Source: Actinomycetes bacterium | GTDB lineage: Bacteria > Actinomycetota > Acidimicrobiia > Acidimicrobiales > Bog-793 | DNA: 6,513 bases | Reading direction: 5' to 3' | Assembly (NCBI GenBank): GCA_021823365.1 | Contig: JAKAOD010000180.1 | Coordinates: 1-6,513, forward strand | Notes under the pieces: model-generated | Told to the model about the DNA's origin: nothing | Database searches by the model: none | The model's input: only the letters and a program-made list of their open reading frames with translations | Shown here: positions 91 to 6,513 of the stretch, one piece after another | Numbering within the stretch: the first letter of the stretch is position 1 | How the letters are laid out: each line of letters starts with the position of its first letter | Made by a program: the position numbers and the translations under genes

Positions 91-381
91 TTACGGGCGA
101 GGCGGAATCTGCTTTACATCCCGCTTCGGCTTGACCGGTCGGATCCCCTCGAGCAAGCTCGCCAACGAGAGCAGGTCGTCGATCCTGAAAGCCGAGCGCC
201 CGGCGGCGATCGCGACGAAGGGGTCCGGAGGATCCACGTCCGTCCACCCTGCAGGAAGGCTCGTCAGCTGGCCGTCGTCCGCGAAGAAGAACACGCGATC
301 CTCCGCCCAGGTGTGCCTGCGCACCACGAGCTCGAACTTCCTTCCCGCGAGTGGATGGAAGGGATGGGTGACTTCGATCCG
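91..381 (-). pseudogene. DUF5372-like small protein of a mobile element, start codon lost
   Basis: Reading backwards from 381, this frame gives RIEVTHPFHPLAGRKFEL, then RRHTWAEDRVFFF, LPAGWTDV and the PFV...AGRSAFRIDDLL segment. It ends at a TAA at 93-91, about 97 codons in all. That order of motifs (T-HPFHP, RR-x-W-x-EDRVFF, LPA-WTD, AGRS-FR--DLL) is what I remember of DUF5372, the y4bD/y4pK-type small proteins found beside transposase or recombinase genes. Their biochemical role is unknown. The length is close to the family norm, so almost all of the protein is here. However, between the upstream in-frame stop near 497 and the GTG at 327 I find no ATG, GTG, TTG or CTG in this frame, and the GTG at 327 would discard the conserved N-terminal third. 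I infer that the start was lost at the junction with the IS21 fragment next to it. The frame itself has no internal stops, so the loss may be fairly recent. Confidence 0.6.
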
Positions 382-425: not shown

Positions 426-1211
426 AAGCCGCGGGTCGAGCGGCAGGTTCCCTTTGTGCGCCAACGGTTCTTCGCCGGGGAGGAGTTCGTCGACCTCACC
501 GACGCACAGCGCCGGGCTCGGGCCTGGTGCCGAGACGGTGCGGGCCTGCGCATCCACGGCACCACTCGGGTCCGACCCGCCGAGGCGTTCGCCACCGGCG
601 AGCAGGGACTGCTGCTCCCCGCTCCGAGCTCCCCCTACGACGTCCCGGTCTTCTCCACCCCGAAGGTCCACCGGGACCACCATGTCGAGGTGGCCCGGGC
701 CATCTACTCGGTGCCCGGTGACCTGATCGGCCAGACGCTCCTCGCCCGGGCCGACCGCTCCAGCGTCAAGCTCTACGCCCGGCGCCAGCTCATCAAGGTC
801 CACCCTCGCCAGGCGCCCGGCGGCCGCTCCACCGACCCGGCGGACCTCCCCTCAGAGCGCACCACCTACGCCCTCAGGGACCTCGACCACCTGATCGCCC
901 TCGGGAAGGGGCACGGGGACGCCATCGGCCGCTACGTCGAGGCGGTCCTCGACCACCCCCTGCCCTGGACCAAGATGCGCCAGGCCTACCGGCTCCTCGG
1001 CCTGGTGAAGAAGTGGGGTCCCGACAAGGTGGAGCTGGCCTGTGCCCGGGCGCTCGAGTCCGAGGCCGTCAACGTGAACCTCATCGCCCGGATGATCGAA
1101 CGGGCCAGAGAGGCCGAGCAGGCCTCATCCCCACCGGTGCCGCCCGTCGTGAAGGGGCGGTTCGCCCGCGACGCCTCCGAGTTCGCCATCACCGCGGAGG
1201 GGTCCAAGTGA
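384..1211 (+). pseudogene. istA: IS21-family transposase IstA, 3' fragment
   Basis: IstA is the DDE transposase of IS21 elements. This frame gives only the C-terminal part, about 260-275 residues. It begins around SKPRVERQVPFVR, which carries the last acidic catalytic residue of the DDE triad (Glu codon at 438-440), and runs through FFAGEEF, MRIHGTT-like LRIHGTT, LLLPAP, PYDVPVF, KVHRDHHVEVARAIYSVP, KVHPRQAPGGRSTDPADLP and HPLPWTKMRQAYRLLGL. All of these are typical of the actinobacterial IstA C-terminus. The N-terminal helix-turn-helix and the first two catalytic aspartates are missing, so it cannot be active. The ATG at 384 happens to be in frame, but I would not treat it as a real start because homology begins downstream of it. 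The TGA at 1209-1211 overlaps the GTG start of istB. Confidence 0.88.
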
Positions 1212-1837
1212 GCACCCCGGCCCCCACGATCTCCGCCGAGCTGCGACACATCCTGGCTCGGCTGCGGCTCGGCCAGATGACCGACACCCTGCCCGAGCGT
1301 CTGTTGACCGCTCGCCAGTCGGCGATGCCACACGTGGACTTCTTCGAGATGGTGCTGGCCGACGAGGTGGCGAGGAGGGACAGGACCTCGGCGAGTCTCC
1401 GGGCCCGCACGGCACACCTCGACCCGACCATGGTGGCCGAGGCCTGGGACGACACCGCAGCCGTCACCTACGACCACGGCATCTGGGCCGAGCTCACCAC
1501 GCTGCGGTTCGTCGAGGAGCACCACAACGCCCTCATCCTCGGGCCGGTCGGGGTGGGCAAGACCTTCCTCGCCACCGCCCTCGGCCACATCGCCTGCCGC
1601 CGCCGCTTCCGGGTCCACTTCGAACGGTCCGACAAGCTGTTCAAGAGGCTCAAGGCCGCACGGCTCGACAACTCGCTCGAGGCCGAGGTGCGAAAGCTGG
1701 TCGGCGTCGATCTGCTCATCATCGACGACTTCGCGCTCACCCCGCTCGATGGCACCGACACCAACGCCTTCTACGAGCTCGTGGTCGAGCGCCACCGCCA
1801 GGGGGCGACGGTGATCACCTCCAACCGGGACCCGTCC
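384..1837 (+). mobile_element. IS21-family insertion sequence remnant (istA 3' part plus istB 5' part)
   Basis: Two adjacent plus-strand reading frames are the C-terminal part of an IstA transposase and most of an IstB helper ATPase, joined by a 4-bp GTGA overlap as is usual in this family. A complete IS21 element would be roughly 2-2.5 kb and would end in short terminal inverted repeats. Here both ends are gone: the left is lost inside istA and the right inside istB. The remnant cannot encode its own transposition. No in-frame stops have accumulated in either fragment, so the truncations may be recent. Confidence 0.85.
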
Positions 1838-1936
1838 AAAGCGCACACGTTCGGCCGAACGTGTGCAAGGCGCCGCCTGAACCCTCACAGGTTCGCCGAC
1901 TCGAGCCGATCGGCATCGACCGTGTCCGCCACGTAG
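1208..1936 (+). pseudogene. istB: IS21-family helper ATPase IstB, 3'-truncated
   Basis: IstB is the AAA+ ATPase that loads and activates IstA on target DNA. The GTG at 1208 overlaps the istA stop (GTGA). From that start, Walker A is GPVGVGKT at residues 112-119, Walker B is LLIIDD at about 169-174, and the sensor-1 motif ITSNRDP is at about 203-209. IstB similarity stops after serine 210 (nucleotide 1837). A full IstB is about 250-260 residues and continues with a WL--MADPLL...DRL segment that is absent here. From about 1838 the frame runs into the neighbouring recombinase element and reads 32 chance residues, antisense to the zinc-ribbon recombinase, before a stop at 1934-1936. The protein would lack the C-terminal AAA+ lid with its sensor-2 region and is very probably non-functional. 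Confidence 0.85.
1843..1866. repeat. Left end: perfect 24-bp palindrome built from two inverted 11-mers
   Basis: The 12-base half gcacacgttcgg is followed directly by its exact reverse complement. Each half holds the word gcacacgttcg or its complement (1843-1853 and 1856-1866), which recurs as an inverted pair at the right end of the element. It begins about 5 bases after IstB similarity ends and finishes 18 bases beyond the stop of the zinc-ribbon recombinase. I read it as the left recombination end. It could also fold as a hairpin at the end of the operon, but no T-run follows on the minus strand, so it is not a typical intrinsic terminator. Confidence 0.75.
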
Positions 1937-3510
1937 GCGAGGAGTCCGCCGCCATTCATCCCGAGGGCTTCGGCAACCAGCTTGGGATCGAGGCTGACGA
2001 GCAGGTCGATGATGCGGGTCGAACGGAGGGTCTTCGTCCGGACGCCGGCCGCGTCGAGCACGTGGGTGAGGTAGGCCGGCGACGCCGGCGTCGTGCGCGT
2101 CTTGGTGATCTTCGTGACGACGAGATGCGGGTTGCGAGTGCCGAGAGCGCCGCGGTGCGTCAAACACGCGCGTAGGGCTGTGACGGAGGCTGGGTCGAGC
2201 GGCACTGGGTGCGGCCGACCGGCAACCCGAAGCGTCAAGGCGGCCGAGTCGACGTCTTCGACGCGCAGTGCTGCGACCTCGGCGATGCTCAGCGCGTGCA
2301 GCATCGCGAGGAGGCCGACAAGTGCCTCGTGAGGGTGGACGTCGGCTCGGCCGCTCGTCCAACGTCGAAAGAGCCGTCGCTGGTCATCAATGCCCAGGGT
2401 CGCGCCGGTGAAGCCGTGGCTCGGGATGGGTGGAATGTCGGCGGCGGGGTCGACGAGAACGAGCTTGTTCCGCTTGGCCCATCGGAAGAACTGGCGAGAG
2501 CCGGTGAGCCGGCGGCGCCGGCTGGCGGGCTGGGCGTTCATGAACGCCTCGACATCGGAGGTCTGCACCATCGCCCAGTCGCTCAGCGCTCGATCGGCGA
2601 CGAGGAACCTCGCGAGGTCTCGGACGATGCCGAGATTGCCCTCGATGGTCGAGTCCGATCGGACGTGTGCGCCGAGGCGCCGGGCCCGCTCCTGAGAGCG
2701 CACCAGATGGTCGCAGAACTGCGCCACAGGCGCCCGCAGCGCCTCGGGGGTGGCGTCGACGCGTCGCTGTCTGCGCCCCGCTGCGAGACGAGCAGCCTGG
2801 TCGAGCCCGAAGGCCAAGTCACGACCGACGAAGAATGCCTCGAGCGTCCGAGCGAGCGCTCCGGCCGATCTTCCCGGAAGTCGAGACCGTTCGAGCAGCG
2901 CTTGAGGATGGCGGGACTGGCCGTCACCCAACAGCTGACCAAGGGACGTGATCATCACGCACGCTCGCCCCATGCAGTGGCGGTCGGCCGCGAAGTCGGT
3001 GAAGTCGCCGAGCCAGTCCGGCGGGTCCTCGATTGCGTCGGCGAGGTTGTCGGCCTGGTTCCGGGCCCGGTCGGGATGCCTCTGCCAGCACCTCCCACAG
3101 AGCAGACCGTCGTGCTTGCGGCCCGGTCTCCCGCACGACGTGCACGGCCGGGCGGGTCGCGGTGGGGGTCCGGGGTGCGAGCACGGACCGCACCAGCCGG
3201 TGGACTCTCGGATGAACCCCGCCTGTCCGCAGCGTGGACACGTTTGCTTGGCGGAGGCAGCCTTGTGACGGCGGCGGCAGCGAAGGCACCGGATGCTCGT
3301 CTTGAACCGCACCACGTGACCGCAGTCCACGCAGGTCCTCGAGCACGTGACGCAGCGGCCAGTTTGGGGCGACAGACGCCGGAACGCTCCGCATGCAGGG
3401 CAGATCTTGCGACGGGCGGCTTCTCGATCGGCAGCCCGGCACCGGTGGCAGAGCTCGGTCCCCTTGCGGCCTATCCCTGCGCCGCATCGGATGCAGTCGC
3501 CGATCCTCAC
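1885..3510 (-). CDS. Zinc-ribbon protein with degenerate tyrosine-recombinase domain
   Basis: This is a 541-residue protein starting at the GTG at 3510-3508, inside the HTH gene's stop (GTGA). The same frame is open further upstream, but the GTG start gives the conserved V-RIGDCIRC beginning and matches the other coupling in the operon. Residues 6-141 hold ten CxxC knuckles (C6/9, 21/24, 37/40, 53/56, 60/63, 75/78, 91/94, 107/110, 123/126, 138/141), enough for five zinc ribbons in a row. Residues about 280-350 look like the SAM-like N-terminal domain of phage integrases (RDLARFL, RQFFRWAKRNKLV). Residues about 395-541 follow the catalytic-domain pattern with most key residues replaced. The first Arg is Ser408 (ALSIAEV instead of GLR-E), the Lys position looks like Arg432, the His of HxxR is Lys493 while Arg496 is kept, and LGH is LGM at 516-518. 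The possible nucleophile Tyr526 remains. I infer a DNA-binding partner rather than an independent recombinase. TnpB of Tn554 is the nearest conceptual parallel. Confidence 0.82.
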   Translation of the reverse strand: MRIGDCIRCGAGIGRKGTELCHRCRAADREAARRKICPACGAFRRLSPQTGRCVTCSRTCVDCGHVVRFKTSIRCLRCRRRHKAASAKQTCPRCGQAGFIRESTGWCGPCSHPGPPPRPARPCTSCGRPGRKHDGLLCGRCWQRHPDRARNQADNLADAIEDPPDWLGDFTDFAADRHCMGRACVMITSLGQLLGDGQSRHPQALLERSRLPGRSAGALARTLEAFFVGRDLAFGLDQAARLAAGRRQRRVDATPEALRAPVAQFCDHLVRSQERARRLGAHVRSDSTIEGNLGIVRDLARFLVADRALSDWAMVQTSDVEAFMNAQPASRRRRLTGSRQFFRWAKRNKLVLVDPAADIPPIPSHGFTGATLGIDDQRRLFRRWTSGRADVHPHEALVGLLAMLHALSIAEVAALRVEDVDSAALTLRVAGRPHPVPLDPASVTALRACLTHRGALGTRNPHLVVTKITKTRTTPASPAYLTHVLDAAGVRTKTLRSTRIIDLLVSLDPKLVAEALGMNGGGLLAYVADTVDADRLESANL

Positions 3511-3812
3511 AGTGGCGGCATCGACCGGCCCCGAGCCGCCTGTTGAGGCTCTCTCCTCGGCGTCGGCTTCTTCACCTCGGCGACCGGGGTCGTGTCCACG
3601 TCGAAAAGGTCGTCGGGACTGCATTCGAGCGCCGTGCACAGAGCGGCGAGCGTGGACAACTTCACCTGGGACGGCTGTTTGGTGAGAAGGGCTGACACCG
3701 AGGCCGCTGAGAGCTCGACCCCGGCTCGCTCGCGGAGCAGGCGGCGCAGCTCGGCGCCGGTCCACACCTCGTGCTGAGCCGCAGCCATCCGGAGCTTCCA
3801 TCGGATGTTCAC
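3507..3812 (-). CDS. Small Xre-type HTH protein of the recombinase operon
   Basis: This is a 101-residue protein starting at the GTG at 3812-3810, which overlaps the stop of the upstream recombinase (GTGA). Its own TGA at 3509-3507 overlaps the next GTG. The choice of GTG over the internal ATG (residue 9) rests on the strong Shine-Dalgarno sequence just upstream and on the conserved-looking IRWKLRMAA opening. Residues about 17-70 resemble a Cro/C1 (Xre) helix-turn-helix fold: WTGAELRRLL, SAASVSALLTKQP as the probable turn and recognition segment, then KLSTLAALCTALECSPDDLF. The last 30 residues are Pro/Arg/Lys-rich and probably disordered. Its place between two recombinases in a fully coupled operon suggests an accessory DNA-binding factor, either controlling direction of recombination or repressing the operon promoter. 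Both roles are inference, and DNA binding is the only part the sequence supports. Confidence 0.82.
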   Translation of the reverse strand: MNIRWKLRMAAAQHEVWTGAELRRLLRERAGVELSAASVSALLTKQPSQVKLSTLAALCTALECSPDDLFDVDTTPVAEVKKPTPRREPQQAARGRSMPPL

Positions 3813-4822
3813 TTCTCCTCCTCCAGCTCTGCCAGCACGTTCGACACGGCTCGGCGATAGGCGTCCTCGATGAACGTCGCCGAGGGCGTCACGTAGCGCA
3901 TCGTCGTGCCCACGTGCCAGTGGCCGAGCATCTGCTGGATGGCGACGAGATCCACGCCTCGCTCGTAGTTACGCGTCGCGCATGCGTGCCGCAGCGCGTG
4001 CGGGGAGAACCGGTCTTCGACCGGCCGACCCTCGAGCTCGAGAAGGTGCCGGAGTCGATTGCGGATCGTGCCGCGATGCAGGACCCCGCCACCCTCGTCG
4101 CAGAACAGCGCGGTCGAGTCCGCCATGCGGGGCCGCACGTCGTCGAGGAACCACCGTAGGACCAAGTCGAGCTGATCGAGCATCGGCACCCAACGGGGCC
4201 GGGGCCCAGAACCCCGGGCCGCCTTTCCGAACCGGACGTGGATCTTGCCGAACGGGCCTCGGTCGAAGTGGAGATCCGATCGCTCCAGTGACGCAGCCTC
4301 CTCGGAGCGCAGCCCGCAGTGATACAGCGTGCGGAACAGCGCGTAATCACGGCCGGCCGATGCGAACTTGCGTGCCGTCGCGACCCGGTCGCGCATGAAG
4401 GCGAAGAACTCCTCCATGCGTTCGGGGGTCGGGGGCGGGCGCGTCGACGGTGAGCCATCGTTGCCGACGTGACGAGCTGCGTTGAACTCGTCCACCGGGT
4501 CGCAGAGCACCACGCCGAACGTCGCCTCGATCTCGGCGGCCTTGCGAGCGATCAAGAATCGGTGGAAGTCCTTGAACGCTTGCACGTATCCCCGTCGCGT
4601 CGACGTGGCCATGCCCCGGGCCACCAACTCGGCCACCACCCGGTCGACGTCATCGGGACCAGCCTCCCAGGCGGGAATGCCGAGCAGTTCCAAGAAGCGC
4701 TCCAACACTCCCGTCGCGTTCTCGATCGTGACGGGGCTGAATCCTCGAGCCGCCCACGAGGCGATGAACCCCTCGACGCACGCGGCTTGGAAGCCGGCAG
4801 CGTCCAGCGGGCTCGCAGTCAT
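3809..4822 (-). CDS. Catalytically complete tyrosine recombinase
   Basis: This is a 337-residue site-specific recombinase of the lambda-integrase/XerC-XerD superfamily, which cuts and rejoins DNA through a 3'-phosphotyrosine link. The start chosen is the ATG at 4822-4820. A GGGAG lies 11 bases upstream, and the frame further upstream runs across the element's terminal repeat and shows no family-like sequence. Residues about 10-95 form the core-binding (SAM-like) domain (GFIASWAARGFSP, YVQAFKDFHRFL). The catalytic domain, about 135-320, keeps the full set: Arg172 (CGLRSEEAASL), probable Lys200, His275-x-x-Arg278 (SPHALRH), His301 (MLGHWH) and nucleophile Tyr310 (TTMRYV). It is the first gene of a three-gene operon and overlaps the HTH gene by 4 bp. 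It is the likely catalytic engine for excision and integration of the element. A plain phage or ICE integrase is less likely, because the partner genes and flanking repeats define a small self-contained element. Confidence 0.9.
   Translation of the reverse strand: MTASPLDAAGFQAACVEGFIASWAARGFSPVTIENATGVLERFLELLGIPAWEAGPDDVDRVVAELVARGMATSTRRGYVQAFKDFHRFLIARKAAEIEATFGVVLCDPVDEFNAARHVGNDGSPSTRPPPTPERMEEFFAFMRDRVATARKFASAGRDYALFRTLYHCGLRSEEAASLERSDLHFDRGPFGKIHVRFGKAARGSGPRPRWVPMLDQLDLVLRWFLDDVRPRMADSTALFCDEGGGVLHRGTIRNRLRHLLELEGRPVEDRFSPHALRHACATRNYERGVDLVAIQQMLGHWHVGTTMRYVTPSATFIEDAYRRAVSNVLAELEEEK
3815..3824 (-). promoter_or_regulatory. Strong ribosome binding site for the HTH gene
   Basis: On the minus strand the last codons of the catalytic recombinase read ggaggaggag, ending 2 bases before the GTG start at 3812. 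The first GGAGG lies 7 bases from the start. This near-perfect Shine-Dalgarno inside the upstream gene supports the GTG start and suggests that the small HTH protein is made in higher amount than the recombinase before it. Confidence 0.7.
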
Positions 4823-4885
4823 CGCCGCGGCCGCTCCCGTGATGACCCGCAAACCGGTGCCGCTCACCGCACACCTTCTTCCCAC

Positions 4886-4897
4886 CACACGTTCGAT
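4886..4897. repeat. Internal copy of the end repeat at the right end
   Basis: The word cacacgttcgat here is the exact reverse complement of 4987-4998, so the right end carries a 12-bp inverted pair separated by 89 bp. Ten of its bases (cacacgttcg) match the two copies at the left end. It lies just downstream of the predicted -10 of the recombinase promoter, about where transcription would start, so a recombinase or HTH protein bound here could shut off its own operon. Confidence 0.65.
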
Positions 4898-4902
4898 GGT
4901 GA

Positions 4903-4930
4903 CACCTAACGATCCCACGTTGTGCCTCAA
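4903..4930 (-). promoter_or_regulatory. Candidate promoter of the recombinase operon
   Basis: On the minus strand TTGAGG (4930-4925) is followed after 16 bases by TAGGTG (4908-4903), about 80 bases before the recombinase ATG. The -35 matches the sigma-70-type consensus at four positions; the -10 is weak. It is the best candidate I see between the right end repeat and the gene, and it sits inside the inverted pair 4886-4897 / 4987-4998. Confidence 0.25.
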
Positions 4931-4988
4931 AGATCGGGGACCCTCGCCTACCTCGGAATGCCCTGCTCGCAGCCGGTTTCGGTCAGAT

Positions 4989-4999
4989 CGAACGTGTGC
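4989..4999. repeat. Right terminal inverted repeat of the recombinase element
   Basis: The word cgaacgtgtgc is the exact reverse complement of the left terminal 11-mer at 1843-1853. SIR2-like coding sequence becomes recognisable directly after it (QFQMHGSLNW from 5000), so the repeat coincides with the point where a flanking gene is broken. That is independent support for this being the element boundary. Confidence 0.7.
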
Positions 5000-5425
5000 C
5001 AGTTCCAGATGCATGGATCGCTGAACTGGTGTCTGTCAGCATCGGGCGTCATGGTGCTCGCTGATTGTCGCCCGGCGTATCGCTCGCGCGATATCAGCTA
5101 CATCGTCGCTCCTGCACATGAGAAGGCGATGCCGACCGCACTGAGCGCCGTGTGGAACGAGGCGCGATCGCTTCTCACGACAGCGGAGGAGTGGGTAGTC
5201 GTCGGGTACAGCGCACCGTACTACGACACGGCAATCGCAGGTCTGCTGTCGACGTCAGCGGCGGGGGCACTGCGGAGGATTCGCATGGTGGATCCCAACG
5301 AGGTCGTCGTGGAGCGGTTTCGAGCACTTACCGGCACGGACGTCGACATCCAGTGGAACGACTCGCTTGACCACTTCTGCGAGGGCCTGCAAAGCGGCGT
5401 GAGCGAGCCGTCTGGGCGCGCGTGA
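5000..5425 (+). pseudogene. SIR2-family protein, C-terminal fragment
   Basis: From 5000 the frame gives about 141 residues ending at the TGA at 5423-5425. It includes QMHGSLNW, WVVVGYSAPYYD and RIRMVDPNE, the pattern of the C-terminal half of bacterial SIR2-like NAD-dependent enzymes. The His codon at 5012-5014 corresponds to the HGS histidine that is catalytic in sirtuins. The N-terminal Rossmann part (GAG-S and the TxNxD segment) is absent, so NAD cannot be bound normally. The same frame is open upstream to an ATG at 4922, but those residues come from the mobile element's end. Many stand-alone SIR2 proteins of bacteria act in phage defence by degrading NAD, but this fragment alone does not show which kind it was. 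No stops interrupt it, which suggests a recent break. A short fused product from 4922 could be made but is unlikely to work. Confidence 0.7.
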
Positions 5426-5640: not shown

Positions 5641-6513
5641 ATGGACGAGTCCGTGTGGCCGCGGCCGGTGCCTTTGGTCGGTGATCCGACGTCAGCAGCC
5701 CAGCGCTCTGCGGATCCTGCAGGATGGTCGTTCGATGCGGCGACGGTGAGGGCAGTCCACGCAGTCCTCGCGGCGAGGCGGGACGTCCGCCGCTTCCGGC
5801 CCGATCAGGTGCCGTCGGAGGTGGTGAAGCAGGTGCTCATGGCGGGCCATCAGGCCCCGTCGGTCGGGCACTCCCAGCCCTGGCGCTTTGTGATCGTGCG
5901 GGATCAGTGGACGCGTGATCGGGCAGCACTCATGGCCGACCGCGAGCGACTTCGACAGGCCGAGATGCTCACTGAGGAGCGCAGGTCGCGGCTGCTCGAC
6001 CTGCAGCTCGAGGGCATCCGGGAGGCACCGGTCGGGGTGGTCGTAGCCTGCGACCGGCGGGTGCCAGCTGGCGGCGTGCTCGGGCGGGCCAGTTTCGCCG
6101 ACGCGGACATGTGGAGCTGTGCCTGCGCCATCGAGAACATGTGGCTGGCGGCTCGGGCGGTCGGGCTCGGCCTCGGCTGGGTGACGCTGTTCCAGCCCGA
6201 GGAGCTGGCCGGGCTGCTGGGCCTGCCGCCAGGGATCGAGACGCTGGGTTGGCTCTGCCTCGGCTGGCCAGATGAGCGGCCGCCCAGTCCCGGCTTGGAG
6301 CGGCACGGCTGGTCGGAGCGCATGCCGCTCGAGGACGTCATCGTGGAGGAGCGCTGGCCGTCTGCTGATGAGCCCGCAGCTCCGGTGTCGCACCTGGCCG
6401 GTCCCGATCCTGCGTCGGTTGTCGCCGGGCGCGACGAGGGTGACGATCGGCTGACCGTTCCCGGCTCGCTCGGGGTGCTCGACGTCGTCGTGAACCGGGT
6501 GCTCGCGCTGCGG
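5641..6513 (+). CDS. BluB-CobT fusion: DMB synthase joined to DMB phosphoribosyltransferase (partial)
   Basis: The frame is open from the ATG at 5641 to the end of the window, 291 codons without a stop. Residues about 41-240 are a BluB domain, the flavin-destroying nitroreductase-fold enzyme that turns FMNH2 into 5,6-dimethylbenzimidazole. Matching segments are RRDVRRFRPD (46-55), APSVGHSQPWRF (72-83), LEGIREAPV (123-131), LGR (147-149), AIENMWLAAR (163-172), GLGWVTLF (177-184), LCLGWPDE (205-212) and the tail MPLEDVIVEERWP (228-240). WVT stands where I remember WVS in BluB. A Pro/Ala/Asp-rich linker (about 241-267) follows. Residues 268-291 begin a CobT domain: DDRLTVPGSLGVLD corresponds to the CobT opening LTKPPGSLGRLE, with Lys missing and one Pro fewer. 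CobT joins DMB to nicotinate mononucleotide, so the fusion would pass DMB directly to the next cobalamin step. The N-terminal 40 residues are extra and unassigned. The catalytic core of CobT is outside the window. Confidence 0.85.
   Translation, partial: MDESVWPRPVPLVGDPTSAAQRSADPAGWSFDAATVRAVHAVLAARRDVRRFRPDQVPSEVVKQVLMAGHQAPSVGHSQPWRFVIVRDQWTRDRAALMADRERLRQAEMLTEERRSRLLDLQLEGIREAPVGVVVACDRRVPAGGVLGRASFADADMWSCACAIENMWLAARAVGLGLGWVTLFQPEELAGLLGLPPGIETLGWLCLGWPDERPPSPGLERHGWSERMPLEDVIVEERWPSADEPAAPVSHLAGPDPASVVAGRDEGDDRLTVPGSLGVLDVVVNRVLALR

Follow-up and report, generated by a model that had tools for sequence, protein, structure and literature searches.

A candidate site-specific transposon found mostly within the transposition genes of insertion sequences in actinobacteria

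We analysed a 6,513-nucleotide stretch of DNA (the window) from an Acidimicrobiales assembly (GCA_021823365.1, contig JAKAOD010000180.1), in which three minus-strand genes, here called A, C and B, encode a tyrosine recombinase, a small helix-turn-helix (HTH) protein and an apparently decayed recombinase homologue. Together they very probably form a site-specific transposon, about 3.2 kb long, that usually inserts into the transposition gene of an insertion sequence (IS). As judged by comparison among related loci (designated L001 onwards), the element has defined ends, inserts exactly and has moved recently; the main group of copies prefers one codon of istB, and a second group a site in IS256 transposases. 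A catalytic recombinase, defined ends and exact insertion are general traits of tyrosine-recombinase transposons, and the element shows all three.

A preliminary description of this DNA had proposed that the three genes move as one unit and had suggested looking for empty sites. Such a site was found. Two plasmids, from Rhodococcus sp. NJ-530 (NZ_CP034156.1; L024) and R. qingshengii (pN9T4-1, NZ_AP026692.1; L052), match at 100% identity across stretches of 5,846 and 3,974 bp, and the sole difference in the 9.8 kb compared is a 3,218-bp insert (L024:5847-9064), which reads ATCTGG-GGTTGGCACTTGTTCG ... CGAACATGTGCGCTTT and entered an intact istB with no target base lost or duplicated. In a second pair, of lower identity (93% and 88%), the flanks of the copy in L112 adjoin at 1726/1727 of an intact IS256 transposase (L117). 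Near-identical copies in different istB genes point to recent movement: L087 and L088, from one genome, are 100% identical for the 1,447 bp next to the A-side end, L110 and L111 are 99.66% identical over ~3.24 kb, and L024 and L113 are 98.6% identical over 3,218 bp, each pair occupying two different istB genes. The 42 two-ended copies have 36 distinct flanks (90% identity). The exact empty site and the near-identical copies in different targets both bear out movement as one unit.

Most resolved loci (40/62) lie in the istB gene of IS21-family elements, which might suggest that the trio is a passenger module of IS21, inherited with istB rather than moving independently. We consider this highly improbable: the flanking istB genes are only ~26-67% identical to that of the window, intact istB genes with the same site empty occur (L052, L053 and L054), eight copies reside in IS256, and near-identical copies sit in different istB genes. 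The exact empty site already contradicts a passenger module. For an independent transposon, similarity among relatives had been expected to stop at 1843, and in L001, L002, L003, L005 and L006 it continues to window positions 1815-1822; this contradicts such a transposon in appearance only, because the flanking istB is a shared target.

By analogy with the L024/L052 pair and the aligned ends of relatives, the element in the window is placed at 1838-5004 plus the hexamer at 5005-5010 (1838-5010, minus strand, 3,173 bp). Its B-side end (1838-1866) consists of AAAGC followed by a 24-bp perfect palindrome (1843-1866; 0.01 expected). This palindrome, of which relatives carry mismatched versions at the same place, is the unusual feature here. 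In A-to-B orientation, the A-side terminal arm, AACTGGCACACGTTCG, occupies 4989-5004 and is adjoined by the hexamer ATCTGG (5005-5010). The 11-bp inverted repeat that had been proposed as the terminus is present (GCACACGTTCG at 1843-1853 and CGAACGTGTGC at 4989-4999), but taken alone it is no more than chance, since the window has 26 exact inverted pairs of 11 bp separated by more than 500 bp, whereas 100 Markov shuffles gave 18.9 on average and at most 35; the element also ends outside it. The related claim that the flanking genes are broken at the repeats stands insofar as both genes are cut at the ends of the element; these ends (1838/5004) lie outside the repeats, and the two genes are different ones.

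The occupied/empty pair and the ends in the window give a 5-6-5 arrangement between the 11-bp arms. In a circle of the L024 insert, two 11-bp arms would surround 5+6+5 bases with the hexamer exactly central, which would make it the 6-bp spacer of the circle joint. With A-side ends located by a pattern in which the hexamer is included, and retained when they had no more than two mismatches, the A-side hexamer of 30 istB copies is ATCTGG in 17, AACTGG in eight, ACCTGG in three and another sequence in two, and it is ATATGG in 8/8 IS256 copies. On the B side of the 30 istB copies, 17 different hexamers occur. Both members of each of the three near-identical pairs, which are unaffected by the inclusion of the hexamer in the pattern, share their A-side hexamer. 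The spacer appears to stay attached to the A-side end as the element changes site, and target bases follow the B-side end.

Targets were called by blastx of the flanks, with a second, enlarged reference set. The 40 istB loci comprise 27 with both flanks labelled, three two-ended copies with an A-side label (one of which, L101, gained its second label with the enlarged set), six with an A-side end only, three with a B-side end only, and L088. In L025 and L093 the B-side flank is unlabelled, yet the joined flanks show the istB motif. When the 45-bp flanks of 30 istB copies were joined, they read as in-frame istB with the break at one codon in 29/30, within N-x-x-(mostly F or P)-x^x-(W or F); for the exception, L001, no frame satisfied the motif rule of the script. 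The majority pattern of the site across these 30 copies is CCANNN^NNNGAANNNNNNGTT, with C, C and A present in 24, 25 and 29 of them, G, A and A in 24, 23 and 21, and G, T and T in 26, 30 and 30. IS256 transposases flank 8/62 loci on both sides, at one site; in A-to-B orientation, labelled istB flanks are always antisense and IS256 flanks always sense. The fixed istB codon, the fixed IS256 site and the differing flanks of the window copy are all missed in the preliminary description.

A few copies lie in other genes. L030 is cut at GVDS^DNGGEF in a gene whose two parts match rve at E 0.0025 and 0.022, below Pfam's cutoff, and which is a probable further DDE transposase. The target of L114 is a PLD-like gene (E 0.00078, below cutoff), and that of L012 is a gene without recognised identity. 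For L028 and L056 we considered whether IS256 moves as a composite with the element inside it; this was not supported, because similarity continues past a second insertion into shared flanking DNA, like a larger duplication. The IS256 region that holds the element in L028 (L028:9545-12990) carries a second insertion that includes two other tyrosine recombinase genes.

The three genes are fully coupled, as had been described, and overlap in GTGA motifs on the minus strand (A end 3809/C start 3812; C end 3507/B start 3510). Gene A (3809-4867) encodes an intact tyrosine recombinase as judged by domain matches (Phage_integrase, E 6e-25; SAM-like N-terminal, 8e-6) and by its catalytic residues, which are kept in nearly all of 46 A proteins (R239 in 46, K260 in 46, H342 in 45, R345 in 46, H368 in 44 and Y377 in 42). 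Its start at 4867 is uncertain, being placed by the onset of homology in many relatives at about residue 36-43 of the 3809-4978 query, and the open frame runs on to 5014, past the end of the element. Gene C (3507-3812, minus) encodes a 101-aa Xre/HTH_26 protein (PF13443, E 1.7e-11).

Gene B (1885-3510, minus) encodes a 541-aa protein with ten CxxC motifs, corresponding to five C2C2 zinc ribbons, and a tyrosine-recombinase homologue that lacks the catalytic arginine R-I. It has no Pfam match at E 0.01 and matches XerC/XerD weakly. Across 36 B proteins the R-I position holds S (25), T (7), A (2), N (1) or P (1) and in no case R, the His of HxxR is replaced in at least 34, and the His of LGH is M or I in 34, with two gaps; two Arg are retained in 35 each and the Tyr in 34. 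Most B proteins carry ten CxxC motifs within their first 260 residues, the exceptions being L089, L025 and L096 with 11, L010 with nine, L012 and L031 with eight, L013 with four and L093 with none in the frame used. A sequence search of B against solved structures gave no relative at E 0.01, and the fold of a structure model (predicted local distance difference test score, pLDDT, 86) matched XerA (E 2.6e-7), Tn1549 integrase, lambda integrase and Cre in the PDB. Domain matches, zinc ribbons and the missing R-I are consistent with the earlier assignment of A as an active tyrosine recombinase, C as an HTH protein and B as a decayed recombinase.

The window copy lies between two different genes. 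On its B side, positions 1208-1837 (plus strand) hold the N-terminal 210 codons of an IS21 istB (PF01695, E 2e-39), cut after SNRDPS, next to a C-terminal fragment of IS21 istA (384-1211, plus; PF22483, NF033546). On its A side, positions 5011-5425 (plus) hold the 3' part (137 codons, starting HGSLNW) of a gene that we take, from its motif, to be SIR2-like. This fragment has no Pfam match and was not found in plasmids; it shares a motif and distant similarity (E ~2e-5 to 5e-5) with 477- and 467-aa proteins of L118 and L120, distant homologues that extend upstream. Blastx labelled both flanks in 36 copies; in 35 of these one gene lies on either side, and the exception is the window.

The window copy is rearranged or mis-assembled, because istB lies on one side and the SIR2-like gene on the other. 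A chimeric assembly across the repeated 3.2-kb element has, in our judgement, an even chance of being the cause: the window is the only mismatch among the 36 labelled copies, and more than one copy per genome does occur (L087/L088). However, the SIR2-like side has CCANNN beside the end, like most istB targets (1-in-64 by chance), and a true insertion in the SIR2-like gene, after which copies recombined, explains the flanks about as well. We put the chance of such a real rearrangement, in which an istB-borne copy recombined with one in a SIR2-like gene, a little short of even; both genes are cut where the element ends, and neither the istB C-terminus nor the SIR2-like N-terminus was found in the window with distant queries, but no sister copy with reciprocal flanks was seen. 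Elsewhere in the window, positions 5641-6513 encode a bluB-type 5,6-dimethylbenzimidazole synthase (TIGR02476, E 2e-68) whose frame is still open where the window stops, and positions 91-327 (minus) a DUF5372 protein (PF17342, E 3e-19) beside the IS21 remnant.

Relatives were collected in several ways. Scanning GTDB contigs with A yielded 19 loci. A tblastn search of plasmids returned 865 records, including 34 at 60-80% identity, of which 19 were fetched. The 62 loci surveyed comprise 21 plasmid regions, L056 (from a flank search), 20 of 24 places from the Streptomyces genome scan, the 19 GTDB loci and the window. Outside this count are L032-L051 and L057-L086 (3-4 kb cuts), mostly places of counted loci or weaker recombinases, among which L060 and L083 (relatives at 45-47%) have no counterpart among the counted loci; also outside are L052-L055 (empty or flank loci), L116 (a 68% relative) and L117-L121. 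Eight of the 62 have no resolved ends (L014, L016-L019, L031, L105 and L106); L011 has no flank, and L013 was not resolved. Matches at E <= 1e-90 occurred in at least 23 of 392 Streptomyces genomes, in at least 5 of 394 genomes of the class and in at least 2 of 397 genomes of the order of L011's genome, a Mycobacterium metagenome-assembled genome (MAG), with the centre genomes counted in; these are lower bounds because four candidates were scored per genome. B homologues numbered 1,244 at E <= 0.001 among 7,994 scored candidates. No A homologue was confirmed in viral contigs. On a tree of A (50/62 loci, frames of at least 300 aa), the IS256 copies it holds (3/8) form one clade (100/100), and the window copy sits among istB copies.

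Several relatives depart from the common layout. L031, L105 and L106 form a Streptomyces sister clade in which A is 45-50% identical. L016, L017 and L018 come from three MAGs, two of Acidimicrobiia type and one with the label Rhodospirillales, yet share a segment of 5.0-5.1 kb at 99.6-99.9% identity. It contains a homologue of A (33-34%) and one of C, and is either a mobile relative or contamination. In L005, about 1.2 kb (L005:4771-6001) separates the A-side end from gene A, longer than in relatives. Many Streptomyces copies have ~0.45-1 kb between the B match and the B-side end (L091 and L102 are without it), and in L025 this interval (L025:9182-9622) encodes a GNAT acetyltransferase; some Streptomyces copies may thus carry cargo. 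Near position 11624, L026 has a second B-side palindrome together with part of a decayed B, which probably mark another, truncated copy close by.

We propose that A would cut and join at the 11-bp arms around the 6-bp spacer, by way of a circular intermediate whose joint reads arm, ATCTGG, arm, and that the A-side end would carry the spacer along from site to site. B is probably unable to cut; it may bind DNA via its ribbons and help to choose the target or to build the complex. C may regulate the operon or serve as a directionality factor. The targeted codons would be constrained across IS proteins, and such conserved motifs could supply many similar DNA sites that are cheap and expendable for the host.

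A number of observations weigh against a site-specific transposon that works in this manner. The circular junctions that the preliminary description had suggested looking for did not appear: no circle or tandem joint was found in viral contigs (0) or in 382 Streptomyces genomes (0/382), both searched with A-N-CTGG hexamer patterns only, nor in plasmids (0 at 80% coverage). The constancy of the hexamer in 38 copies is partly selected, because the search pattern includes it. The roles of B and C are inferred from sequence, and the predicted template-modelling score (pTM) of the B model is low (0.37). On the tree of A, the istB copies do not group as a single clade (4 changes). The window copy's own flanks are mismatched, and the preference for IS genes is not absolute, because L012, L114 and the half-SIR2-like window copy lie outside recognised IS genes or are mixed.

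A broader reading, which we hold to be evenly balanced, is that these copies represent a widespread undescribed class of transposons specialised on insertion sequences. In this class the dead zinc-ribbon paralogue B would select IS-constrained codons (of IstB, IS256 and another DDE transposase), and the element would switch IS family along its own phylogeny and propagate its own crossover hexamer without swapping it for another on each transposition. If so, the element would be a natural brake on IS21 and IS256 activity, and it may limit their spread in actinobacteria. It would be a DNA transposon family with other transposons as its niche, and appears to be a parasite of parasites.

Our literature search, from which subscription papers and preprints were mostly absent, found no description of the trio, and none of a group that targets IS256 or of codon-specific insertion into istB. 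The group II intron RmInt1 targets ISRm2011-2 and is, like the present element, a mobile element specialised on an insertion sequence, but it is an RNA retroelement that splices out, whereas a DNA recombinase is encoded here. Tn554 targets radC, and at each of its moves the donor-side hexamer is copied to the other side; in the present element, the A-side hexamer is constant in the three near-identical pairs, whose members lie in different targets. The present element resembles Tn554 in having two recombinase-type proteins of unequal size, often with a small protein, and in being site-specific; unlike Tn554, it lacks two catalytic recombinases (R-I is lost in 36/36 B, with A intact), has HTH_26 in place of TnpC and has a shorter large protein, as judged from published descriptions of Tn554. 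With its HTH_26 protein C and a B without R-I, it is not the textbook Tn554 or three-recombinase arrangement, in agreement with the preliminary description.

Membership in the actinobacterial Tn554-related class defined by Van Houdt et al. (2012; PMC3414803) is nevertheless a rival, if an improbable one. That class has an ordinary and a large recombinase-like protein, a small third protein in several members and actinobacterial plasmids as hosts (PMC3414803), and one tabulated plasmid, NC_007491, also holds a B homologue. However, its long recombinase is 611-828 aa with a potential catalytic motif (PMC3414803), whereas B is 541 aa without R-I and the third protein is HTH_26 and not TnpC-like; NC_008270, NC_008697 and NC_003903 are not among the 49 B-matching records, their presence in the searched set being unchecked. 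The transposon described here also resembles RIT elements in size (~3,500 bp) and in its three overlapping genes, and one RIT type reportedly lies in a transposase gene, that of a Tn6049-related transposon (PMC3414803); RIT elements have three tandem recombinases with a possible catalytic motif and ends reported as variable (PMC3414803), whereas C is an HTH protein here. GInt islands likewise have recombinase-type genes that are needed together and are site-specific, preferring the end of ssb, but four genes are essential (ginABCD), three of them recombinase-related, as opposed to three genes here with one HTH; zinc, HTH, istB and transposase are not mentioned in the main text of that paper (PMC5385486).

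The strand-biased circularising SEs of Gammaproteobacteria carry intA-tfp-intB-srap with two RHRY recombinases; the first two to be described are 7.2 and 13.8 kb long, and the median is 15.7 kb. Circularisation leaves no empty site, and one SE insertion is reported in insJ of IS3 (PMC10214605). Like SEs, the present element has a coupled recombinase/recombinase-like operon, inverted-repeat ends, few target sites and, in its predicted joint, inverted repeats with a 6-bp spacer. Unlike SEs, it has only A-C-B between its ends in the window, the SE gene set being set apart by description, and it targets istB and IS256. On SE insertion, the joint hexamer goes to the intA-distal side and the target's six bases to the intA side (PMC10214605), whereas here the hexamer seems to stay on the A side, an opposite polarity that depends on treating it as the spacer. 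The element could serve as a small model in which to study how a protein-coding motif is chosen by a site-specific recombinase, what the function of a dead paralogue is, and why the hexamer seems to be kept here and is reported to be exchanged in SEs.

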